A program made the translations under genes and the position numbers. Under the pieces are notes generated by a model. It ran no database searches and was not told where the DNA came from. It saw only the letters and a list, made by a program, of their open reading frames with translations. This document shows, piece after piece, positions 15,436-26,374 of a DNA stretch of 32,676 nucleotides. Position 1 is the stretch's first letter. Each line of letters opens with the position of its first letter. The stretch lies in NCBI GenBank assembly GCA_024655925.1, contig JANLFS010000024.1, positions 1-32,676 on the forward strand. Direction: 5' to 3'. This DNA comes from Bacillota bacterium. Its GTDB lineage: Bacteria > Bacillota > DTU025 > JANLFS01.

Positions 15436-16160
15436 CGGCAGCCCCCAGCGGGTGGGTGTTCAGAGGCACGCGGGTCTCGCGGGACGGTGAAGTCCACTTG
15501 GATGTGCCGGACTTGCGCATATCCGGCCAGGGCGTGACCTGCGTGATAGGACCTAACGGGGCGGGGAAGACGACACTCTTACGCCTGCTTGCAGCTGTGA
15601 TCGCCCCCACGGCCGGACAGATCTGGTGGAACGGCTCCGATATCTGGTCGGACGGCGACCGGGGCGCACACGCAGTCAGGCGGCGGGTGGGGTACGTGCC
15701 CCAGAGACCCTACATGTTCTCAGGTTCTGTCCTGTCGAATGTCGCCTACGGGCTGAGGCTCCGGGGCATGACCGAGCGTGAAGCGCGAGCCCGGGCGCGT
15801 GAGGCTGTGGATTGGGCGGGCATCGCACACCTCCAGGATAGGCCCGCGTCAAAGCTATCGGGCGGGGAGGTGCAACGGGTGGCCCTGGCGCGCGCCACGG
15901 TACTGGAGCCTGAGGCCTTCTTGTTGGACGAGCCCACATCCAGCCTCGATCCTGGGGCGCAGGCCTTCGTGGGGGAGACTGTCAGGTCCCTTGCTCGCAG
16001 GGGAGTCCCGGTGGTTCTTGTCAGCCACGACCTCAGGTTCGCAAGGGAAGTCGGGGATGCCGTGATCGCACTCCAGGGTGGTCGGGTGGCTGCGTCTGGT
16101 CCCTGGGACGATGTTCTCAGGACGTTGGTTGGAGGGTGGTGGAGGCCGTGGAGTTCATGA
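15432..16160 (+). CDS. tupC: Tungstate-type ABC transporter ATP-binding protein TupC
   Basis: ATPase partner of TupB, about 242 residues. Walker A GPNGAGKTT (from residue 40), Q-loop YVPQRPYMFSGSVLSNVAYGLRLRG (typical of TupC), signature LSGGEVQRVALARA (143-156), Walker B FLLDEPTSSLDP, H-loop VLVSHDLRFAREVGDAVIALQGG. No C-terminal TOBE domain, unlike ModC. GTG 15432 overlaps the tupB stop and has GGAGG at 15417-15421; ATG 15414 is an in-frame alternative that would overlap tupB further. Its stop overlaps the moeA ATG as ATGA. Confidence 0.92.
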   Translation: MTAAPSGWVFRGTRVSRDGEVHLDVPDLRISGQGVTCVIGPNGAGKTTLLRLLAAVIAPTAGQIWWNGSDIWSDGDRGAHAVRRRVGYVPQRPYMFSGSVLSNVAYGLRLRGMTEREARARAREAVDWAGIAHLQDRPASKLSGGEVQRVALARATVLEPEAFLLDEPTSSLDPGAQAFVGETVRSLARRGVPVVLVSHDLRFAREVGDAVIALQGGRVAASGPWDDVLRTLVGGWWRPWSS

Positions 16161-17392
16161 CCCTCACTCCGAGGGAACGCGCACAGGAGATCCTTGCGCG
16201 ATCGATGGAGCATGCCCGCGCAGGCTTGCGGCCTGTCGTGGAGGAACTGCCCGCCCGGTCGAGTCTCGGGCGAGTCCTTGCCTGCGATCTGCTATCCCCG
16301 GTGGATGTTCCGGCGTTCAGACGGTCCACGGTGGACGGGTTCGCAGTAAGGGCGCGAGAGACTTTCGGGGCTTCCGCTGGGTCGCCTGCCTACTTCGATC
16401 TCTCCCGCGAGATCCGGGTCGGCACCTGCCCTGGCGAACCTTTGGGGCCGGGATGCGCAGCACCGATCGCCACCGGCGCCATGCTGCCAGAGGATTCCGA
16501 TGCCGTGGTCATGGTTGAGAACACCCAGGTTCTCGCGGGATCCATAGTCGCACTGGAACGCCCCGTTGCTCCTTCGGAGAATGTCGTGGGGGTGGGGGAT
16601 GACATGAGGCAGGGTGCCGTCATGCTTGAGGCTGGCAGGGAGATCAGACCCCAGGACATCGGCTTAATTGCAGCGGTGGGGGATCCAGAGCAAGTCGCTG
16701 TGACTGTCTTCGCCCGGCCGCGCGTGGGAATCATCTCTTCCGGGGACGAGCTGGTGGCGGGCAGCGATGTGCCTGGGCCTGGGCAGGTCAGGGACATCAA
16801 CTCGCACTCCATCGCGGCGTCTGTGGAGAGATGCGGCGGGGTCCCTGTAGGCTTCGGACTTGTTCGCGACACACGCGATGCTCTCTTTGCCGTGCTTCGC
16901 CAGGCTCTCGATTCCTGCGATGCCGTAATCCTCTCCGGGGGCAGTTCGGTCGGGGGTCGGGACTACACTGCGGACGCGATAGCATCTCTGGGCGAGCCAG
17001 GCATCCTCGTGCACGGAGTGGCCATCAAACCCGGCAAGCCTACAGTCCTGGCGATTGCCGGCCACAAGCCGGCCTTCGGGCTTCCAGGCCACCCGGTATC
17101 TGCCTTGGTAGCCTTCGAGCTCTTCGTCAGGCCCGCACTGGAACTCCTTGCCGGATTACGTAATCCCAGGAGGCGCCCGACTGCCCGCGCTGTCTTGGCT
17201 GAGAATATCCCGTCGGAACCTGGGCGGGAGGATTACGTATTCGTCAGGCTAGACGAGGCAGGGGTTGCGCACGTGGTTCACGGCCGGTCCGCGATGATCT
17301 CCATGCTGGCGCAGGCGGACGGGTGGGTGGTGGTCCGCGAGACCGACCGCGGCATAGAAGCTGGTTCCGATGTGGAAGTGGTGTTGATCTGA
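16157..17392 (+). CDS. moeA: Molybdopterin molybdenumtransferase MoeA
   Basis: Inserts molybdate or tungstate into adenylylated molybdopterin, the last cofactor step. About 411 residues, normal for MoeA. Visible: PAFRRSTVDGFAVRA (the conserved DG.AV block), APIATGAMLPEDSDAVVMVE, REIRPQDIGLIAAVG, the central MoCF-binding core with ISSGDELV, GQVRDINSHS, LSGGSSVGGRDYT, HGVAIKPGKPTVLA and LPGHPVSALVAFELFV, and a small C-terminal domain. ATG 16157 overlaps the tupC stop (ATGA); GTG codons 21 bases upstream are possible. It is the first of two tandem moeA-type genes. In tungstate users the two copies may handle Mo and W separately; that is inference here. Confidence 0.94.
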   Translation: MTLTPRERAQEILARSMEHARAGLRPVVEELPARSSLGRVLACDLLSPVDVPAFRRSTVDGFAVRARETFGASAGSPAYFDLSREIRVGTCPGEPLGPGCAAPIATGAMLPEDSDAVVMVENTQVLAGSIVALERPVAPSENVVGVGDDMRQGAVMLEAGREIRPQDIGLIAAVGDPEQVAVTVFARPRVGIISSGDELVAGSDVPGPGQVRDINSHSIAASVERCGGVPVGFGLVRDTRDALFAVLRQALDSCDAVILSGGSSVGGRDYTADAIASLGEPGILVHGVAIKPGKPTVLAIAGHKPAFGLPGHPVSALVAFELFVRPALELLAGLRNPRRRPTARAVLAENIPSEPGREDYVFVRLDEAGVAHVVHGRSAMISMLAQADGWVVVRETDRGIEAGSDVEVVLI

Positions 17393-17435
17393 TTCGGGCA
17401 GCGGCGAGGCTGCGAGAGATGGAGGATCCGGCAAC

Positions 17436-19442
17436 ATGTCATCCATGAGACCGAGGAAAGACTTCTACCTGAGTGAAACGCCTCTCGAGAAGGCGAGATC
17501 AGTCTTCCTTTCGAGGTTCCTTGAGCTCAAAACCTCGGTTGAGGTGGTGGACGTGCGGGACGCCCGGGGCCGGGTGACTGCCGAACCGGTGTACGCCACC
17601 TCATCCTCGCCTCATTACAACGCGGCTGCCATGGACGGGCTTGCAGTGAGGGCAAGGGATACCTATGCGGCTTCAGACGCCTTTCCTCTCACAATCGAAA
17701 TCGGGGCATTCGCGCGCTACGTGGACACCGGGGAACATCTGCCCGCCGGACTCGACGCCGTGATCATGCTCGAGGACCTCCGGGAGGCCGGGGAGGACCG
17801 CGTGGTCATCACCAAACCCGCCACCCCATGGCAGCACGTGAGGGTCATCGGCGAGGACATCGTGGTGAGGGAGATGATCCTTCCTGAGGGCCACCAGATC
17901 CGTCCGGTCGACATTGCCGCGATGTTCGCCGGTGGGGTGTTCAGAGTGGCAGTCCGCAGGCGGCCGAGGATAACCGTGATACCTACCGGCACTGAGCTTG
18001 TGCCTCCCGACGCCCCGCGGGCGCCGGGACAGGTAGTGGAGTTCAACTCGCATATGCTGCGTGAGACCTTCATCGAATGGGGCGCAGATGCCAGATCCTT
18101 GGGGATTGTCCCCGACGACCCTGAAGCCATCAACAAGGCGATATCCAGTGCGGCCTCTGTCTCAGACATCGTAGTGGTGAATGCGGGTTCCTCGGCCGGG
18201 TCCAGGGACCATACCGCGCGGGTCGTGAGCGAACTTGGGGAGGTTCTCATCCATGGAGTGGCTATCAAGCCTGGAAAGCCGGTGATCCTTGGGGTTGTGG
18301 ACGGAGTCCCCACGGTGGGCCTTCCCGGGTACCCCGTGTCCGCGCTCCTCGCCGCCGAGCTCTTCGTGATGCCGCTCATCAGGGCGATGCTCGGGCTTGC
18401 CCCACTTGAGAGAGATACTGCCGAGGCGACTCTCATCAAACAGGTATATTCTGAGACAGGAGCCGTGGAGTTCGTCCGGGTTCGTCTTGGGAATGTGAGT
18501 GGAAGACTCGTTGCGGCTCCAATGGGCCGCGGAGCGGGTCTGATCACGTCGATGACACGGTCAGACGGTATCGTCGTTGTGCCTGCCGAGAGACAGGGAC
18601 TCGAGGCCGGCTCTCAGGTCAGGGTCATCTTGAGCCGAAGCAAGCAGGAGATTGATTCCGCAATCATGGCCACAGGCAGCCACGATCTTGCCCTGGACGT
18701 GCTCGGGACCTACCTCAGGCGGTTCTTCCCGGGAACTTCCCTCAACTCGGCGCATGTGGGCAGCCTGGGGGGCCTCGCCGCAGTCGTCCGGGGAGAGACC
18801 CACATTGCCGGGACCCACCTTCTGGACGAAGCGTCGCACGAGTACAACTGGCCATATGTGGAACGCTTGACAGCTGGGACAGAGGTTCGCGTTTGCCTTG
18901 TGAACCTGGTGGGCCGGGCACAGGGCATTATGGTCGCTCCGGGGAACCCGAAGGCAATACAGTCGATTCGGGACCTTGCCTCCCCGGGAATCAGGTTCGT
19001 CAACCGGCAGCGGGGGGCGGGCACGCGTGTGCTATTTGACCAGAAATTGCGGGAGCTTGGAATCTCTCCGTCAAGTATTGAAGGGTATTCCCGAGAGGAG
19101 TATACGCATATGGCGGTGGCGTCAGCGATCGCGTCGGGCGTGGCTGACGCAGGCATGGGGATCTATGCCGCGGCCCAGGCTCTGGGGTTGGACTTCGTAT
19201 GGGTTGCCGATGAGAGGTACGACCTTGCCGTGCGAGAGGACCTTCTGAATACGGAGCCCATCCAGAAGGTTCTGTTCGTCCTCTCCTCACCGGAGTTCCG
19301 CGAGGCCGTCCGCGCGCTGGGCGGGTACGACGTCAGTACGATGGGGACTTTCGCCAGCCGCCATCGATGCGGAGTCTCCCGAGAGAACCCAGATGACCGA
19401 GGAATACAGGGCGAGGAGAAGGGGTGGCGGCAATGCCCCTGA
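17436..19442 (+). CDS. MoeA fused to a periplasmic-binding-protein-like domain
   Basis: 668-residue two-part protein. Residues 1 to about 405 are a second MoeA (AAAMDGLAVRARDT, GQVVEFNSHMLRE, NAGSSAGSRDHT, HGVAIKPGKPVILG, LPGYPVSALLAAELFV). In this copy the usual GDE motif reads PTGTELV. From about residue 411 follows a PBP-like domain (MATGSHDLALDVLGTYLRR, GETHIAGTHLLDEASHEYN, VNRQRGAGTRVLFDQKL, VASAIASGVADAGMGIYAAAQALGLDFV), the fold used by ModE/TupA-like oxyanion sensors but cytoplasmic here because no signal peptide exists. This fusion is a known architecture; the PBP part is thought to bind the oxyanion or a cofactor precursor. Start ATG 17436 has GGAGGA 9 bases upstream. The 3' end overlaps moaA. 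Confidence 0.92.
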   Translation: MSSMRPRKDFYLSETPLEKARSVFLSRFLELKTSVEVVDVRDARGRVTAEPVYATSSSPHYNAAAMDGLAVRARDTYAASDAFPLTIEIGAFARYVDTGEHLPAGLDAVIMLEDLREAGEDRVVITKPATPWQHVRVIGEDIVVREMILPEGHQIRPVDIAAMFAGGVFRVAVRRRPRITVIPTGTELVPPDAPRAPGQVVEFNSHMLRETFIEWGADARSLGIVPDDPEAINKAISSAASVSDIVVVNAGSSAGSRDHTARVVSELGEVLIHGVAIKPGKPVILGVVDGVPTVGLPGYPVSALLAAELFVMPLIRAMLGLAPLERDTAEATLIKQVYSETGAVEFVRVRLGNVSGRLVAAPMGRGAGLITSMTRSDGIVVVPAERQGLEAGSQVRVILSRSKQEIDSAIMATGSHDLALDVLGTYLRRFFPGTSLNSAHVGSLGGLAAVVRGETHIAGTHLLDEASHEYNWPYVERLTAGTEVRVCLVNLVGRAQGIMVAPGNPKAIQSIRDLASPGIRFVNRQRGAGTRVLFDQKLRELGISPSSIEGYSREEYTHMAVASAIASGVADAGMGIYAAAQALGLDFVWVADERYDLAVREDLLNTEPIQKVLFVLSSPEFREAVRALGGYDVSTMGTFASRHRCGVSRENPDDRGIQGEEKGWRQCP

Positions 19443-20479
19443 TTGACTCTTTTGGAAGGCGGATCGAGTACCTGCGCATGTCTGTGACGGACAAATGTGA
19501 CCTCAGGTGCGTCTACTGCATGCCTCCATCAGGCGTCGCCCTGAGGAGTCACGATGAAGTCTTGAGAAATGAGGAATTCGCGCGAGTTGCCAGAGTTGCA
19601 GTGGGCCTCGGCATTACGAAGATCAGGGTCACTGGCGGGGAGCCGCTCGTCAGGCGAGGCATAGTGGACCTCGTGCGGGAGATTGCTGCGATCCCTGGCC
19701 TCCGCGACCTGGCAATGACCACAAATGGGCAGAGGCTGGATGTGCTCGCCGGGGATCTGGTCCGGGCCGGGCTCAGGCGGGTCAACGTGAGCCTGGATTC
19801 GATGCGGCCCGATACCTACTCCAACATAACCCGGGGAGGGGATCTCGCCCGGGTGATTTCCGGCATAGCCGCGGCTGAACGCTCAGAGCTTGTACCCATA
19901 CGGCTCAACGTGGTAGTGCTGGGAGGCGTGAACGACGGGGAGATCGAGGATTTCGCCAGGTTGACCTTTGCCAAGCCGTGGGACGTCCGGTTCATAGAGG
20001 CCATGCCATTCGCCGGCAGGCTCCGCCAAGTCGAGAGTAGGCACGTTCCCATAGCGGAGGTCCGCGCGCGCGTAGCCGCCCTTGCCAGGCACGGTCTCGA
20101 GAGACTCCCCACACCGGGCGGGGAGAACTCCTCCGACTGGCAATGGCCAGGTGGCCACGGGGGTCTATCAATGGGTCCTGCTGACTATGCAAGACTGCCC
20201 GGAGCCGTCGGTAGAGTAGGGTTCATCGGGTATTCCGGGCACGAGGAAGGTTTCTGCTCCATGTGCAACCGCCTCCGGATCACCTGCGACGGCAAGGTCA
20301 GGCCATGTCTCGTCGAGCGTAGATCCGTGGACTTGAGAGGACCCTTGCGTGGTGGCGCGTCCGACGAAGAGCTGGCTGAGGTAATCGTGTCGGCTGTTCG
20401 GGCGAAACCCGCGGGAAGAAACGTGACGCCCGGCGGACACGCAGAGGTGGCGGACTCAATGAACCAGGTAGGAGGTTAG
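19433..20479 (+). CDS. moaA: GTP 3',8-cyclase MoaA (radical SAM)
   Basis: First step of molybdopterin synthesis: converts GTP to 3',8-cyclo-GTP using S-adenosylmethionine and two 4Fe-4S clusters. About 348 residues. N-terminal cluster motif CDLRCVYC (Cys22, Cys26, Cys29), the SAM-binding VTGGEPL, and the C-terminal cluster CSMC...C (Cys275, Cys278, Cys292; spacing CX2CX13C). It ends in Gly-Gly (MNQVGG), the tail needed for activity in MoaA. Start is uncertain: ATG 19433, or GTG 19424, which has AGGAG 5 bases upstream; the difference is three residues. Overlaps the preceding MoeA-PBP gene, so translation is coupled. moaC follows after 55 bases. Confidence 0.95.
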   Translation: MPLIDSFGRRIEYLRMSVTDKCDLRCVYCMPPSGVALRSHDEVLRNEEFARVARVAVGLGITKIRVTGGEPLVRRGIVDLVREIAAIPGLRDLAMTTNGQRLDVLAGDLVRAGLRRVNVSLDSMRPDTYSNITRGGDLARVISGIAAAERSELVPIRLNVVVLGGVNDGEIEDFARLTFAKPWDVRFIEAMPFAGRLRQVESRHVPIAEVRARVAALARHGLERLPTPGGENSSDWQWPGGHGGLSMGPADYARLPGAVGRVGFIGYSGHEEGFCSMCNRLRITCDGKVRPCLVERRSVDLRGPLRGGASDEELAEVIVSAVRAKPAGRNVTPGGHAEVADSMNQVGG

Positions 20480-20534
20480 CTGGCTCGGGCAGGATGGATG
20501 GGCGGGAAACCGCAAGACGGGGGAGGCGGTAGGT

Positions 20535-21032
20535 TTGGGAGATCTCACTCACGTAGATGAGCGCGGGCAGGTCAGAATGGTGGACGTGGGGCTCAAGCAG
20601 GAGACCCGGAGGATTGCGGTGGCATCAGGCCGAATCCAGATGAGACCCGAGACCCTCAGGTTGATCATGGAAGGCAAGGCGCCGAAGGGAGACGTGTTCG
20701 CAACGGCCCGGATCGCCGCGATCACAGGCACCAAGCTCACCCCATTCATCGTTCCCCTATGTCACAGCATCGGCGTGACAGGGGTGGAGGTGGAGTTGAC
20801 ACCCTGCTCCGAGGGCGGCCAGGCGTTTGTGTTCTGTCAGGTGTCGGTCTCAACTGTGGGACGGACGGGGGCTGAGATGGAGGCAATGGCGGGTGTGGCT
20901 TCAAGTCTTCTCGCGATCTACGACATGTGCAAGGCGGTCGACCGGGGGATGGAGATAACCGATGTGCGACTGGAACTGAAGGACGGCGGGAAAAGCGGGC
21001 GATTTGATCGGAAGCTGGAGGCCGAAAGGTAG
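20535..21032 (+). CDS. moaC: Cyclic pyranopterin monophosphate synthase MoaC
   Basis: Second step of molybdopterin synthesis: converts 3',8-cyclo-GTP to cyclic pyranopterin monophosphate, working with MoaA. 165 residues, normal length. Motifs: MVDVGLKQETRRIAVASG, KGDVFATARIAAI (Lys51), VPLCHSIG (His77), GRTGAEMEAMAGV, AIYDMCKAVD (Asp130, Lys133) and LELKDGGKSGRF at the end. These match the catalytic residues known from the E. coli enzyme. TTG 20535 is the start, with GGAGG 8 bases upstream. The stop is immediately followed by the GTG of the next gene. Confidence 0.96.
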   Translation: MGDLTHVDERGQVRMVDVGLKQETRRIAVASGRIQMRPETLRLIMEGKAPKGDVFATARIAAITGTKLTPFIVPLCHSIGVTGVEVELTPCSEGGQAFVFCQVSVSTVGRTGAEMEAMAGVASSLLAIYDMCKAVDRGMEITDVRLELKDGGKSGRFDRKLEAER

Positions 21033-21998
21033 GTGAGTGCGGTGGCGTTTGTAGCTGCAGTCTCGGTAAGCAAGGAGAAAGGGACGCAAAAGGAGAACGT
21101 GCCCGAGGCAGTGCTAAGGGCGGGTTATGGGATCGAAGGAGATGCTCATGCGGGGGACTGGCCGAGGCAGGTCAGCTTGCTCGCGGAGGAGAGCATAGGT
21201 AAGATGCGCGACCTGGGGCTGGACCTACACCCCGGCGACTTCGCGGAGAACATCACAACTGCAGGTATAGACCTGACGGCTCTGCCGGTGGGAGCGAAGC
21301 TCACTGTGCACCCGCGAGGCGAAACCAGCTTGACCTCAGTCGCGTCATCGATCTTGCTCGAGCTTACGCAGATAGGCAAGGAGTGCCATAGAGGCTGCGC
21401 GGTCTTCCAGCGCGTGGGGGACTGTGTCATGCCGAGGGAAGGCGTGTTCACGCGGGTTCTCCGCGGTGGTTCCATCAGGCCGGGCTACGAAATCGAGGCC
21501 GGGCACTTCGGGTTCGGGCTCGTAACCGCAAGTGACAAAGGGTCCAGGAGGGAGCGGGAGGATCTTTCGGGGCAGGCTGCCCGTGAGTTGCTTGCTGCCT
21601 CCGGGATCATCCTCTGCGACTACGCTGTGGTCCCGGATGAACGGGAGACGATCCGGACTGTCCTCGAGCGAATGTGCTCTCTCGGCCTGGACCTTGTGGT
21701 CACCACCGGTGGGACAGGGATGGGGCCGAGAGACGTAACACCTGACGCCACGGGGGACGTGATCGACCGTGAAGTCCCAGGTATTCCCGAAGCCATGCGC
21801 ACTGCGGGAATGCGTGAGACTCCAAGAGCCATGCTGTCCCGGGCCAGAGCTGGCACGCGCGGGCGCACCCTCGTCATCAACCTGCCCGGCAGTCCCAGGG
21901 GCGTAAGGGAGTCCCTGGGCGCGATCCTGCCCGCGCTCGCACATGGCCTCGAGATCCTGACAGGCCGTTCCGGAGAGTGCGGACGGGAGGGTAGATAG
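21033..21998 (+). CDS. MOSC domain fused to MogA/MoaB molybdopterin adenylyltransferase
   Basis: Two-domain protein, 321 residues. Residues 1 to about 155 are a MOSC domain (GIEGDAHAG, VSLLAEESI, GDFAENITTAGID, IGKECHRGCAVF, MPREGVFTRVL), the cofactor- or sulfur-carrier fold with its conserved cysteine (Cys118). Residues about 160-315 are a MogA/MoaB domain (VTASDKGSRREREDLSG, TTGGTGMGPRDVTPDAT from 224, INLPGSPRGVRESLGAILPALAHGLEIL) that adenylylates molybdopterin before MoeA acts. GTG 21033 follows the moaC stop directly and has GGAGG 10 bases upstream; GTG 21042 is an in-frame alternative. Last recognised gene of the cofactor operon. Confidence 0.93.
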   Translation: MSAVAFVAAVSVSKEKGTQKENVPEAVLRAGYGIEGDAHAGDWPRQVSLLAEESIGKMRDLGLDLHPGDFAENITTAGIDLTALPVGAKLTVHPRGETSLTSVASSILLELTQIGKECHRGCAVFQRVGDCVMPREGVFTRVLRGGSIRPGYEIEAGHFGFGLVTASDKGSRREREDLSGQAARELLAASGIILCDYAVVPDERETIRTVLERMCSLGLDLVVTTGGTGMGPRDVTPDATGDVIDREVPGIPEAMRTAGMRETPRAMLSRARAGTRGRTLVINLPGSPRGVRESLGAILPALAHGLEILTGRSGECGREGR

Positions 21999-22087: not shown

Positions 22088-23932
22088 GTGGAGGCGGTGG
22101 ACCGTTGCAGCCGTGTTTTGTGGAAACCGCGCATCTTTCGGGCCCTGGCAGCCGTGGCTGTTGTTGCGATGTGGGCTCTCGGCCTCTTGGCCCCATTCGA
22201 TCGCTCCTTTCATACCTGGCTTTCCGGGGCTTTCGCACATTCTCCTGATCCCGGAGTGGCCCTAGTTGTTGTGGACGATCGAGCGCTGGCAGCTGTAGGG
22301 CGTTGGCCGTGGCCACGGTCTGCGTTGGCCCAGCTGATTGCCAGGATCTCAGAAGGCCGCCCCGCGGCCATCGGGCTCGACATCATCCTCTCAGAACCTG
22401 ATGGCACCCATGATGAGTCTCTAGCCCAGGCGGTTCAGGCAGCTGGAGACGTGGTGCTACCTGTGCACGTTGAAACGAAGAACTTGCCGGTAGGAGCAGC
22501 TTGGTACGCGACTGCTCAAGCCCCGAAAGCTCCGTCAGGGCCAGTCGGCTCCGCAGCAGCCGGCCTTGGCCATGTCGTTGCTGTTCCAGACTCCGACGGT
22601 GTTCTTCGGCGGGTTCCGGGTTTCGTAAGTGCCGGCGGCACATTCGTCCCCGGTTTCGCCGTGGAAGTCGCCCGTGTTGCGCTTGGTCTCGCCCCGGCTG
22701 ACATCAGGTTTGTGCCAGGGTCTCACATATCTCTCGGGCGGATACAGATTCCGCTCGATTCCTCTTCCAGCCTGCTGCCGGAGTTCCCAAGACCTCCGGC
22801 GGCGTCTCAGATCTCAGCTGCGGACGTTCTCGGCTCGACGCTGGATCCGGCCGTCTTCTTCGCGGAGAAGATTGTGCTCGTTGGAGCGACAGCCCCGGGA
22901 CTTGGTGACCGACACCACACCGCATCCTCCAGGTATGGCGACCCCATACCCGGAGTCCTGGTGCAGGCGGCCGCGGTTCAGTCCATCCTGAAGGGGCGGT
23001 GTGCGCGGGCAGCGTCCCCATGGATCCTGTTCGCCGTGGGACTGGCGACCTGGATCCCTCTCAACCTGCTCTCTCAGGCCCGCCGGGCCTCACACCTCGG
23101 CTGGTCGGCGGTGGGCCACGCGGGGGTAGCACTCACCGCGGCCTTCCTGGCGGGCTGGCTGTCGGTACGGCACGCCCTGACGATTGGGCCCTCGGTGGTA
23201 GTGTTCGCGGCGGCAGCCTCATTCACGGTGGAAGCGGCTCAAAGAGCAGCACAATCAGATTCCCTCCGGATCGCGCTCTCCCGCTACGTGGGTATGGTTC
23301 CCGGCGCCGGGCAGAGGCACAGGCTACCACAAGCCGCCGCTGTGATGTTCGCAGACCTTCGAGGCTTCAGCCGTGCTTCGGCCGACTTGGACCCCGCCCT
23401 CGCCGCGGATCTGGCCAACGCCTATCTGGGTGCTATGGCTCGGGCGGTCATGGAGGCCGGCGGGGTCGTGGACAAGTTCCCCGGGGACGCGGTCCTCGCG
23501 GTGTTCGAGAGTGGAGGGCGCGACGCCATGATCCGGGCAGTCAAGGCTGCGCGGAAGGTGAGAGAGGCAGTCGCGGCGGTCTCCCGGCCACACGAGTCTG
23601 CCTCGTCCGGTGGGCCGATGGGTGTGGGTGTAGGGATCGCATACGGGCCGGTACTCCGTGCGGAACTGGGCACCACCAGTCGCGCGGATTTGACCGTCGT
23701 CGGCTCCACAGTGAACGTGGCGAAGGCCCTAGAGGATGCTGCAGGTCCCGGACAGATTCTTCTCGGGCTGCCCGCGTTGAAGTCCCGGGCCGGCCCGGGT
23801 GACGGCGTGGGTTCTTTCTCCTGCCCGGGAGTTTCGCAGAGCGGTCCCGGGTCCGATGTGGGTGCCTACCGTTCTCACGGACCTGTCCCCAAGGTGGACA
23901 GTGACCGCTGGGTAGTGCTGGAGATAGTGTGA
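22088..23932 (+). CDS. CHASE2-domain class III adenylate cyclase
   Basis: Membrane sensor-cyclase, about 614 residues. An N-terminal membrane segment (about 18-36) leads into an extracytoplasmic CHASE2 domain (about 50-305; VALVVVDDRALAAVGRWPWPRSALAQLI and GLDIILSEPD are typical), then about three membrane segments (312-328, 342-360, 366-380) and a cytoplasmic class III cyclase domain (about 415-570). Metal-binding aspartates are Asp423 (FADLRGFSRA) and Asp467 (KFPGDAVLAVF). Lys463 and Thr536 fit the adenine-selecting pair of class IIIb enzymes. Asn543 is present, but the transition-state arginine four residues later is Ala547 (VNVAKALE). Start is uncertain: GTG 22088 or GTG 22097. Same direction as the moa operon (89-base gap) and as fecR and crp downstream. 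Probably makes cAMP from ATP in response to an outside signal. Confidence 0.88.
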   Translation: MEAVDRCSRVLWKPRIFRALAAVAVVAMWALGLLAPFDRSFHTWLSGAFAHSPDPGVALVVVDDRALAAVGRWPWPRSALAQLIARISEGRPAAIGLDIILSEPDGTHDESLAQAVQAAGDVVLPVHVETKNLPVGAAWYATAQAPKAPSGPVGSAAAGLGHVVAVPDSDGVLRRVPGFVSAGGTFVPGFAVEVARVALGLAPADIRFVPGSHISLGRIQIPLDSSSSLLPEFPRPPAASQISAADVLGSTLDPAVFFAEKIVLVGATAPGLGDRHHTASSRYGDPIPGVLVQAAAVQSILKGRCARAASPWILFAVGLATWIPLNLLSQARRASHLGWSAVGHAGVALTAAFLAGWLSVRHALTIGPSVVVFAAAASFTVEAAQRAAQSDSLRIALSRYVGMVPGAGQRHRLPQAAAVMFADLRGFSRASADLDPALAADLANAYLGAMARAVMEAGGVVDKFPGDAVLAVFESGGRDAMIRAVKAARKVREAVAAVSRPHESASSGGPMGVGVGIAYGPVLRAELGTTSRADLTVVGSTVNVAKALEDAAGPGQILLGLPALKSRAGPGDGVGSFSCPGVSQSGPGSDVGAYRSHGPVPKVDSDRWVVLEIV

Positions 23933-23943
23933 TGCCGGTCACA
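23928..23943 (+). promoter_or_regulatory. Perfect CRP-type operator (TGTGA-N6-TCACA)
   Basis: The sequence TGTGATGCCGGTCACA is an exact match to the CRP half-site consensus. It overlaps the stop codon of the cyclase gene. Downstream, an extended -10 TGATATGGT ends at 23970; the start point it predicts (23977) puts the operator centre at -41.5, the class II activator position. The neighbouring CRP-family protein has the matching recognition helix. Binding is inferred. Confidence 0.75.
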
Positions 23944-23961
23944 GTCGGCTCGTCAGCCTTC

Positions 23962-23970
23962 TGATATGGT
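23962..23970 (+). promoter_or_regulatory. Extended -10 element ahead of fecR-crp
   Basis: TGATATGGT has the TGn extension and 4 of 6 matches to the -10 consensus. No good -35 is seen, as expected for a CRP-dependent promoter. TAAGAT at 23972-23977 is an alternative -10, but it would put the operator at an off-phase -48.5. Confidence 0.45.
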
Positions 23971-23988
23971 GTAAGATAGGGTACGGTC

Positions 23989-24768
23989 ATGTCCTGGACA
24001 ATGGGGGCGTTCGCGTTGCGATTACGCCTGAGGGCTGGTCTCTCACGGGTGGCTGTAATTGGGCTCATATGTCTCTCGGCGGCTGCTCTTGTCTTCGTGT
24101 CGCAGGCATCTTCGGGGAGTGTCTGCTCCGTCGCCCGGGTGTGGGGGGAGGCCTGGCTCCGCGGGCCCGGGGGCACGGACCCTTCACTGTGGAACAGGTT
24201 GGAGGCCGGCATGCTGCTGGAGCCGGGCACCGCCATCCGGACTGGACAGGGAGCCGGAGCTGTGTTGGTCTTTGCCTGTGGGAGCGTTGTCAGGCTGTCC
24301 GAGATGACCGAGACGATGGTGGGCCGTGCTGGAGTGTCGGCCTCGCCCAGCCAGGCACTCTCGTCAGAGCCGTCGGCAGGCGCCTCTTCCCGCGGACCCG
24401 TCACTCAAGGCATTTCGGTATTTGTCGGCAGTGTGTGGTTGGAGATAATGAAACGGCAGGTCGGGATGACGTCGTTCGAAGTCGAGACCCCTTCGGCTAC
24501 GATCGCAGTGAGAGGGACGTCCTTTGGTGTCTGGGTGGGGGAGGACGGGACCACGCAGGTGTGGGTAGAATCAGGGCTTGTGGAGGTCTTCAACGACGCG
24601 GGATCAGTGATGGTGGGGCCCGGCAAGTCCGCCTTTGTGAGGAAAGGTGAGGGGCCCAGGCCGGACGGCGTGCCGGGGCGCGGAGCGGGCCAGGACAAAG
24701 AACACCCGGGAAAGGGTGTCAAGGATGATGGCGGAAAAGGCAAGAGCAACGGAAACGCGCCGAAGTGA
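23989..24768 (+). CDS. FecR-domain membrane-anchored protein
   Basis: 259 residues. An N-terminal membrane segment or signal anchor (about 19-40) is followed by a FecR domain (about 50-215): VWGEAWLRGPGGT, LEAGMLLEPGTAIRTGQGAGAVLVFACGSVVRLSE, and VETPSATIAVRGTSFGVWV are characteristic. A middle stretch is rich in Ser, Ala and Pro. The last 40 residues are a low-complexity Gly/Lys/Asp/Pro tail (GKGVKDDGGKGKSNGNAPK). FecR domains sit outside the cytoplasm and take part in signal sensing or surface assembly. Start ATG 23989 has only a weak ribosome site (ATAGGG); ATG 24001 is possible. It lies just after a perfect CRP box and overlaps the crp-like gene, so it may act with the cyclase or be a CRP output. 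Confidence 0.85.
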   Translation: MSWTMGAFALRLRLRAGLSRVAVIGLICLSAAALVFVSQASSGSVCSVARVWGEAWLRGPGGTDPSLWNRLEAGMLLEPGTAIRTGQGAGAVLVFACGSVVRLSEMTETMVGRAGVSASPSQALSSEPSAGASSRGPVTQGISVFVGSVWLEIMKRQVGMTSFEVETPSATIAVRGTSFGVWVGEDGTTQVWVESGLVEVFNDAGSVMVGPGKSAFVRKGEGPRPDGVPGRGAGQDKEHPGKGVKDDGGKGKSNGNAPK

Positions 24769-25450
24769 CAGGGTGCAGCCAAGCACGGCGCTCTGCGCGT
24801 GCCCCCTCTTCTCGGGACTGGAACGGGAGGCTCTGGCCGATTTGACTCGGGGTGCTTTGGAGTTGAGACCCCGTCGCGGGCAGATGATCTTCTGCCAGGG
24901 TGAAGCCAGTCGGGAACTCTACGCTGTCCTGGATGGACATGTCAGGATCTTCCGGACATCCCCTGAAGGGGCGGAGAAGACTCTGGCGATTCTGGAAGAA
25001 GGGGATGTGTTCGGAGAGCTATCGGCCGTGGATGGGCTTCCGAGGTCCGCGACTGCCCAGGCTGTCACGGACTGTCGACTGGTGTCGATAAGCCCGGCGG
25101 CCTTGATGGAGTGTGTCGCCCGCGTGCCGGGGTTTGCCCAAAACCTCCTGACGCGGCTGGCGACGATGCTCAGGGAGACTGACGAAGCCGTCGACCTTCT
25201 TGCCTTCACCAGCGCCAGAGGGCGTGTTGCCTCGGCGCTCTTGCGCCACGCTTCCGCATCCGGTGTGCCATCTGATTCACCGACCCCGAGCGGACTGACC
25301 CAGTCCGACATAGCGGCGATAGCGTCCACGACCCGGGAGACGGTCAACCGTGTGCTTGGACAGCTCGTAGACGCGGGAGCCATCTCCATATCCGGCAGGC
25401 GGTACATTGTGCTCGACAGACGCCTGCTGGAGGAGATGGCTTCATCGTGA
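24725..25450 (+). CDS. Crp/Fnr family transcriptional regulator, CRP-like
   Basis: About 241 residues with the CRP layout: cyclic-nucleotide-binding domain (about 28-140), dimer helix (about 141-165) and winged helix-turn-helix (about 165-235). The binding cassette reads GDVFGELSAVDGLPRSAT; the Glu in GEL (98) and Arg107-Ser108 match the cAMP contacts of E. coli CRP. The recognition helix TTRETVNRVLGQL (R204, E205, R209) matches the R-E-x-x-x-R of E. coli CRP that reads TGTGA. There is no FNR-type N-terminal cysteine cluster, though three Cys occur near the start. ATG 24725 is chosen (AAGG just upstream), overlapping fecR by 44 bases; GTG 24773 is an alternative. Likely the effector of the cAMP made by the upstream cyclase. 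Confidence 0.9.
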   Translation: MMAEKARATETRRSDRVQPSTALCACPLFSGLEREALADLTRGALELRPRRGQMIFCQGEASRELYAVLDGHVRIFRTSPEGAEKTLAILEEGDVFGELSAVDGLPRSATAQAVTDCRLVSISPAALMECVARVPGFAQNLLTRLATMLRETDEAVDLLAFTSARGRVASALLRHASASGVPSDSPTPSGLTQSDIAAIASTTRETVNRVLGQLVDAGAISISGRRYIVLDRRLLEEMASS

Positions 25451-25473: not shown

Positions 25474-26280
25474 CTACTTCCCTGGCTTGCCTTTGACTTT
25501 GTCCTTACCCTCCCCTGATGGGCCGGGCTCACCCGAACCTCCGCCAGTGTCGGATTGACCCCGGCCGCTGCCCTTCGGCCCAGCATCGCCGGCCTTGCCA
25601 GTGTCAGACTCGTGATCGGGCTTACCAGCGGGGTGGTCCGGTTTTCCGGTCTGAGCGCGGATCTCGTTCCATGATCTCTGCTCCGACCTCAGTCTGAGTG
25701 CGAGACGGAGAGCGTCCGAGTCCCCGGATGCCCCGACCAGGATAGCTGCCACCAGCATCTCCCTGTGTGTGACCTTGAACTGTTCCCGCAGGCGTGCCTG
25801 GACTGCTGTGGGCAGCCCGCACGTGGCCGCTGCCAGGTCCGAGCACGCCGCCTCGGCAAGCTCCTCGTCTCTCGCTTTCCCGTGCAGACTCCTGCGGCTG
25901 ACCACAGCGGAGATCGCCTGCCCGAGGTTTCGTTCTTGCAGGCCCAGCGACATGGCCAATTCGCCCCACCCGGTGCCGTCTGCGGCCACGGCCAGCACGT
26001 CGGCATACGGTGTCGCGGTCTGGGACGCAATCACCGCCGCGATTACCAGTTCCCCGATGCCCCAACCTGAATCGAAGAAGGCCGTGAGCTCTTCCACGGT
26101 GAGACCGAGATCTGGGAACGCCTCCGCGACCCGCTGCAACAGAATGGGGTGTTCGAGCTGTTCGTCCGCCTGTGCGCTGGTGGCGCTCGGGTCCAGGGTG
26201 GCGCCCGTCGCGTACACCCGTGCTGGGGCGGCCAGGACCACTGCCAGCAGCACCAGCGAAGCGAGCTTGCACAGTCTCAT
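25474..26280 (-). CDS. Secreted two-repeat protein with Gly/Lys-rich tail, function unknown
   Basis: 268 residues, not recognised as a named family. A clear signal peptide (MRLCKLASLVLLAVVLAAPARVYA) implies export. The body has two similar units: about 63-113 (FFDSGWGIGELVIAAVI ... GTGWGELAMSLG) and about 163-211 (QFKVTHREMLVAAILV ... QRSWNEIRAQTG), each ending in a W-x-E-(L/I) step. The last 58 residues are low-complexity, rich in Gly, Lys, Asp and Pro and ending KGKPGK, much like the FecR protein's tail. The ATG at 26280 has GGAGG 9 bases upstream, so the longer frame to 26439 is rejected. It converges on the crp gene, 23 bases between stops. A CRP-like box and a TACACT -10 precede it. It may share a job with the FecR protein at the cell surface. 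Confidence 0.75.
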   Translation of the reverse strand: MRLCKLASLVLLAVVLAAPARVYATGATLDPSATSAQADEQLEHPILLQRVAEAFPDLGLTVEELTAFFDSGWGIGELVIAAVIASQTATPYADVLAVAADGTGWGELAMSLGLQERNLGQAISAVVSRRSLHGKARDEELAEAACSDLAAATCGLPTAVQARLREQFKVTHREMLVAAILVGASGDSDALRLALRLRSEQRSWNEIRAQTGKPDHPAGKPDHESDTGKAGDAGPKGSGRGQSDTGGGSGEPGPSGEGKDKVKGKPGK

Positions 26281-26331: not shown

Positions 26332-26374
26332 AGTGTAGTCCCTGGCCTGTTCGCAGACAGTGATGCCCATCACA
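26332..26374 (-). promoter_or_regulatory. CRP-like operator and -10 element for the secreted repeat protein
   Basis: On the minus strand TGTGA-TGGGCA-TCACT lies at 26374-26359, 9 of 10 matches to the CRP consensus. A TACACT hexamer at 26337-26332 predicts a start near 26325, putting the operator centre at -41.5, the same as for fecR-crp. The predicted leader is about 44 bases and contains the GGAGG site. Regulation is inferred. Confidence 0.6.

Follow-up and report, generated by a model that had tools for sequence, protein, structure and literature searches.

Sensors of the CHASE2 type are frequently met together with lone FecR proteins, and the subject of this report is a locus of this kind on a 32,676-nucleotide contig of a Bacillota bacterium (JANLFS010000024.1, assembly GCA_024655925.1; this whole stretch is referred to below as the window). 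Here a CHASE2 class III cyclase gene, a perfect CRP box, fecR and a gene for a CRP-type regulator follow one another in this order, all on the plus strand, and the ensemble is probably a self-amplifying one-component signalling module in which CRP would positively regulate its own gene. A described counterpart is the clr-cyaD1-smc02177(FecR)-smc02178 locus of Sinorhizobium meliloti, where the same parts are clustered, i.e., a CRP-type gene, a CHASE2 cyclase, a FecR gene and a secreted-protein gene. In that organism the FecR and secreted genes are induced by Clr, cyclic AMP (cAMP) and CHASE2 cyclases, and the FecR and smc02178 proteins are dispensable for signal perception (PMC5498481).

Other systems share fewer elements with the window. 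Certain Campylobacterota clusters also combine a CHASE2 cyclase, a FecR protein and a helical-repeat (TPR) protein, but they include a phosphodiesterase, and their description mentions neither a CRP gene nor an operator in the cluster (PMC9239204). Likewise, the BiofilmReg operon of Burkholderia has a FecR(-LysM) protein beside a CHASE2 sensor (PMC5192318), although its output is a two-component system, with a CHASE2 histidine kinase, and not a cyclase with CRP. The cAMP-CRP class II promoters and the CRP autoregulation of Escherichia coli have the operator, the recognition-helix residues and the centre at -41.5 in common with the window; the E. coli protein, however, regulates globally, whereas the search of the window genome gave only two intact class II promoters, both in the locus. 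An earlier interpretation made from the letters of the window, hereafter the sequence-only reading, held that no named system with this arrangement was known, a claim that the S. meliloti locus, with its same parts, and the similar Campylobacterota clusters overturn. The features of the locus are the following.

22088-23932, plus strand: gene for a CHASE2-class III nucleotide cyclase of 614 amino acids, a membrane sensor with a cytoplasmic cyclase domain
22148-23053, plus strand: CHASE2 extracellular sensor domain (PF05226, residues 21-322, E 2.5e-54)
23333-23764, plus strand: class III cyclase catalytic domain (Guanylate_cyc, residues 416-559, E 1.5e-07)
23726-23728, plus strand: Ala codon in place of the transition-state Arg (N543-VAK-A547)
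23928-23943, plus strand: CRP box A, a perfect TGTGA-N6-TCACA, TGTGATGCCGGTCACA
23965-23970, plus strand: -10 hexamer TATGGT, extended (TGA before it), beginning 21 nt after box A
23989-24768, plus strand: gene for a FecR-domain protein (FecR E 9.3e-11) with an N-terminal membrane anchor or signal, a single FecR domain and a charged tail
24647-25450, plus strand: gene for the CRP-type regulator (cNMP_binding E 9.4e-24; HTH_Crp_2 E 2.5e-16)
25474-26280, minus strand: fourth gene of the module, for a secreted protein (ATG at 26280; signal peptide MRLCKLASLVLLAVVLA), convergent with crp
26332-26337, minus strand: -10 hexamer TACACT, at a gap of 21 nt from box B
26359-26374, minus strand: CRP box B, TGTGATGGGCATCACT, upstream of the fourth gene

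As in loci of the Clr/CyaD1 type, the parts are clustered in the window and the FecR and secreted genes lie behind boxes for the local CRP. The differences concern the wiring. The Clr box is TGTTN8AACA, unlike the TGTGA-N6-TCACA of the window, and in the S. meliloti locus (read as L097) a single one, TGTTTCCCGCGGAACA, lies in the intergenic region shared by smc02177(FecR) and smc02178, and the 11.5 kb read contain no Clr-box match 5' of clr. Clr receives its input from many cyclases, S. meliloti having 28 class III genes, and an annotated phosphodiesterase lies nearby. Its smc02178 protein is of the Sel1 type, whereas the secreted protein of the window carries GWGxGE motifs; no sequence family common to the two was found, and both are secreted and helical by prediction or annotation. 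What is new with respect to the known systems would be the placement of crp within its own target operon and a class II geometry fixed through a phylum, along with a predicted regulon of very few genes, a second output in the form of the GWGxGE secreted family, and an altered cyclase site. Regarding the better known FecI/FecR regulators, neither an adjacent ECF sigma factor gene nor a TonB receptor was found, the neighbours of fecR being the cyclase, CRP and secreted-protein genes, and the likeness to these anti-sigma regulators is limited to the FecR domain.

The evidence for the module begins at box A, the sole perfect site within the window. Its spacing to TATGGT predicts a transcription start at about 23977 and places the box centre at -41.5, the geometry of a class II CRP promoter; the same spacing, with 21 nt from box end to -10, is found at boxes A and B. 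The gene order, the operator and its distance from the -10 had all been proposed in the sequence-only reading, and domain matches together with the sequence scan bear them out. However, perfect sites number 7 in the 3.2-Mb genome and 3 in a reversed control, and for this reason a perfect box is by itself weak evidence. Most of the six others lie inside genes, and as candidates for a wider class II regulon they were rejected, none having an intact -10 at a gap of 21. When the search pattern combines box, 21 nt and TANNNT with at most one mismatch, four matches remain genome-wide. Only box A fits the pattern exactly; another match lies upstream of the 25474-26280 gene in the same locus, and the other two, elsewhere, have a mismatched -10. 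The predicted regulon would be very small. Among the relatives, the genome-wide class II matches fall inside the module in both cases for G004, in the single case for G008 and for G011, and in 2/3 for G009.

Relatives were sought in 61 genomes and then in 399 of the phylum, and their neighbourhoods were read. The cyclase adjoins fecR in 16 loci, with crp next as well in all but one, and several families of the phylum share the order cyclase-fecR-crp together with box A. In 12 of these 16 loci the cyclase-fecR gap contains a box with no more than one mismatch, i.e., 12 boxes in 5,070 bp of gaps as compared with 12 in 222,288 bp of these loci outside the gaps, a 44-fold density where 0.27 boxes would be expected. 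Exactly 21 nt after box A, NANNNT occurs in 11 of the 12 loci. When the gap boxes and the boxes after crp are pooled, this gap is followed by NANNNT in 19/20 and by TANNNT in 12/20 (background rates 0.037 and 0.004), other gaps being nearly empty, and the inclusion of unlinked sites, described below, brings NANNNT to 25/26. In L082, the lone exception, TAAACT stands at gap 20. P values for such counts presume independent sites, which related genomes do not provide, and the fairer figure takes one box A per genus: 7/7 at gap 21, with P about 9e-11 if independence is assumed. The gap-21 count does not include the boxes after crp in L084 (11155), L135 (7673) and L136 (8634), those of L135 and L136 having no NANNNT at that gap, and the one-mismatch box of L142, where the cyclase stands beside a weak crp match and there is no fecR. 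Conservation of the box in orthologous loci was the check that the sequence-only reading had named, and its outcome, box and spacing alike, supports that reading.

The regulator itself is the only cNMP-binding (PF00027) protein found in the genome, which is 97.6 percent complete, and the cyclase is the only class III cyclase (PF00211); no CYTH (class IV) cyclase that could act as another source of cAMP was found there. By sequence, the protein has the make-up of a CRP, with a cNMP domain, ligand residues and a CRP-type winged helix. The motifs GEL and PRSAT and the recognition helix RETVNR, all previously noted, are present, as is LRETDE; the equivalents of E. coli CRP Glu72, Arg82, Ser83 and Thr127 are kept, and that of Ser128 is Asp. 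Across the relatives aligned, the R-E-x-x-x-R of the recognition helix and R82/S83 are retained. Its best-scoring solved relatives are the CRP/FNR-family regulators 3d0s and 3i54, and the CRPs of the scanned named genomes are distant only, at best 31-36% identical. The idea of a self-contained circuit gains support from the fact that the single CRP, the single class III cyclase and the only pair of intact class II promoters found in the genome are all at the locus.

The circuit as first described was incomplete, since it overlooked a fourth gene, which lies behind a separate box and is predicted to be under CRP control. The lost Arg of the cyclase, discussed later in this report, had also gone unnoticed. 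The fourth protein consists of an alpha-helical domain with a repeated GWGxGE motif, followed by a Gly/Lys-rich tail. Neither Pfam nor NCBIfam has a family for it, a fold comparison gave no significant match in the PDB, and a plasmid search with the protein gave no match; AlphaFold yields confident helices only at residues 41-130 and low confidence elsewhere. The gene occupies the same position in G009, G004, G008, G011 and G002, and before all six order-level copies, that of the window included, a box is followed by TANNNT at exactly gap 21 (TACACT, TAGACT, TACTAT, TATCAT, TAAACT and TACGAT), the box of G002 having two mismatches.

Homologues of the GWGxGE domain that are not linked to the module were found by a profile search of other genomes. 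In six genomes of one genus that have the cyclase-fecR-crp module (G187, G059, G211, G385, G132 and G097), the unlinked homologue has an upstream box in 6/6 cases, five perfect and one with one mismatch, with TANNNT at gap 21 and in the right direction. In G235, G345 and G366, which belong to another genus of the same family, the homologue is present and there is no cyclase match, no CRP orthologue (G235 has one weak CRP match, at 24 percent identity) and no box. Because the unlinked homologues have the box in the six genomes with the module and lack it in these three, the data support the view that the box goes with CRP and not with the position of the gene.

The picture is less certain for the messenger. 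In class III cyclases, the Arg of the NxxxR motif stabilises the transition state. The cyclase of the window keeps both metal-binding Asp residues (FADLRG, FPGDAV) and the Lys/Asp purine pair that specifies adenine (VDKF, ADLTVVG), and its CHASE2 domain sits between membrane segments, as judged from the sequence. However, the Arg of NxxxR is kept by all 28 other cyclases aligned, S. meliloti CyaD1 included, and its loss here and in two relatives, L079 and L080, makes cAMP synthesis by the window cyclase uncertain. With the transition-state Asn/Arg pair incomplete, we do not count the protein as a proven adenylyl cyclase, and a literature search on class III cyclases that lack this Arg gave nothing usable. 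Of the adenylyl cyclase postulated earlier, the class III domain stands and the production of cAMP is in doubt. The two levels of the argument separate at this point: the DNA-level circuit is independent of the lost Arg, and the identity of the ligand depends on it.

Several observations weigh against the module as proposed. In the cyclase, they are the replacement of the catalytic Arg by Ala (NVAKA), likewise in L079 and L080, and in CRP the change of Glu72 to Asp in four order-level relatives. At the DNA level, the predicted leader of fecR is just about 12 nt long, and in L083, L084, L140 and L153, which keep the gene order, the gap has no box within one mismatch. In G008 (L081, 48-1475) an IS-type open reading frame (UPF0236) takes the place of the region immediately 5' of fecR, where box A is absent. 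In addition, the unlinked homologues of G012, G304, G325 and G281 have no box despite the CRP relatives encoded there, so the link between box and CRP is not universal.

These points bear unequally on the other explanations that we weighed. That box A is a palindrome which arose by chance where the cyclase gene ends is hardly credible: a perfect site is not rare in this genome, as the comparison with the control indicates, but the conserved position and spacing in many loci, together with the six unlinked promoters, contradict it. CRP sites can also repress, and several FNR-type proteins read similar palindromes, which makes it conceivable that the box serves another CRP/FNR-type regulator, or represses, the adjacent CRP being incidental. 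We give this very little credence, because the genome has no second PF00027 protein, the centre at -41.5 is an activating class II geometry, and the site accompanies CRP across genomes.

A stronger contender, although on balance somewhat unlikely, is that the same promoter circuit operates with a ligand other than locally made cAMP, the cyclase domain, in the order of the window, being inactive or making another product, and CRP working without ligand or with a different one; CHASE2 would then signal by another route, or the sensor would be decaying. The Ala in place of the catalytic Arg points this way, as do the Gly or Arg found at the position of the substrate-pair Lys in L079 and L080 and the Glu72 change in the CRPs of four relatives. 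DNA binding without cAMP has, moreover, a precedent within the CRP family in DdrI (PMC11253593). On the other hand, both metal Asp residues are kept and, in the window, so are the Lys and Asp of the purine pair; the Lys beside the lost Arg position could substitute for it; and CRP, unlike DdrI, keeps GEL, RS and the T127 equivalent. A related and broader proposal, which we regard as unlikely, is that the module is a phylum-wide self-amplifying cyclic-nucleotide switch reserved for a tiny surface output, the FecR protein and the GWGxGE secreted family. In the order of the window its nucleotide chemistry would have changed, with a cyclase that lacks its catalytic Arg and a CRP whose ligand pocket would be drifting, possibly towards a nucleotide other than cAMP.

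Gene order, operators, spacing and conservation are read directly from the sequence, and from them we infer the chain from signal to output in the self-amplifying module. An outside signal would act on CHASE2 and alter what the cyclase domain produces, most likely cAMP. The only CRP of the genome would bind box A and activate the fecR-crp operon as a class II promoter, a step strongly supported by the sequence, and this would yield more CRP, i.e., positive feedback, along with the FecR surface protein. Binding to box B, likewise strongly supported, would activate the gene for the secreted helical protein. Once the nucleotide exceeds a threshold, the loop may lift CRP sharply, and two extracytoplasmic proteins would be exported. 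It is more probable that these serve as outputs than that they belong to the sensor, given that their S. meliloti counterparts are dispensable for perception. The positive feedback postulated in the sequence-only reading is thus predicted for CRP and does not extend to the cyclase, as the window scan found no box with at most one mismatch 5' of the cyclase gene; it follows that the signal should still gate the switch, the loop acting at the level of the receiver, with the sensor outside it.

Such a module would name likely target genes of one CHASE2 sensor and offers base-exact promoter predictions in many genomes, along with a new family of secreted proteins, the promoter of which goes with CRP even when unlinked. 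Having one sensor, one regulator and two promoters, it lends itself well to work on bistable cAMP-CRP autoregulation, for which global regulators are the usual subjects, and the cyclase is a clear test of what a class III enzyme can do when it lacks the catalytic Arg.

Some further features deserve mention. The TGA of box A (23930-23932) doubles as the stop codon of the cyclase, and such an overlap of operator and stop codon occurs in five lineages (window 23928-23943; L079 7329; L080 3141; L137 7684; L154 7056). The crp reading frame opens at a GTG (24647), and its likely start is the ATG at 24728, which overlaps fecR. Directly 5' of the cyclase, positions 16136-21998 carry molybdenum cofactor genes (two MoeA-type, MoaA, MoaC and MOSC/MoCF); those of them that were searched for gave no match beside the module in the relatives whose neighbourhoods were read. 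In G008, the cyclase lies on a separate contig from fecR. In G002 (L092, 1773-2954), crp is reduced to a frame of 109 amino acids and cyclase and fecR give no match, while the secreted gene persists with its two-mismatch box and TACGAT at gap 21, apparently a decaying module, if not a misassembly.

The genome of the window also contains a weak second GWGxGE homologue (contig C8, 51270-51467, E 4.6e-5). In other families, the gene after crp, near a box (L135 7808-8596, L136 8965-9771, L143 9195-9740 and L083 11829-12599, in oriented coordinates), encodes a differing secreted protein with a signal peptide, a low-complexity stretch and a small region of helical appearance, as though one slot were filled by different exported proteins across families. 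Finally, another perfect CRP box of the window genome (L004 1501-1516, contig C52) lies between two genes that look hydrogenase- or NuoE-type, with TGAGAT at gap 21, and is a possible extra CRP target.

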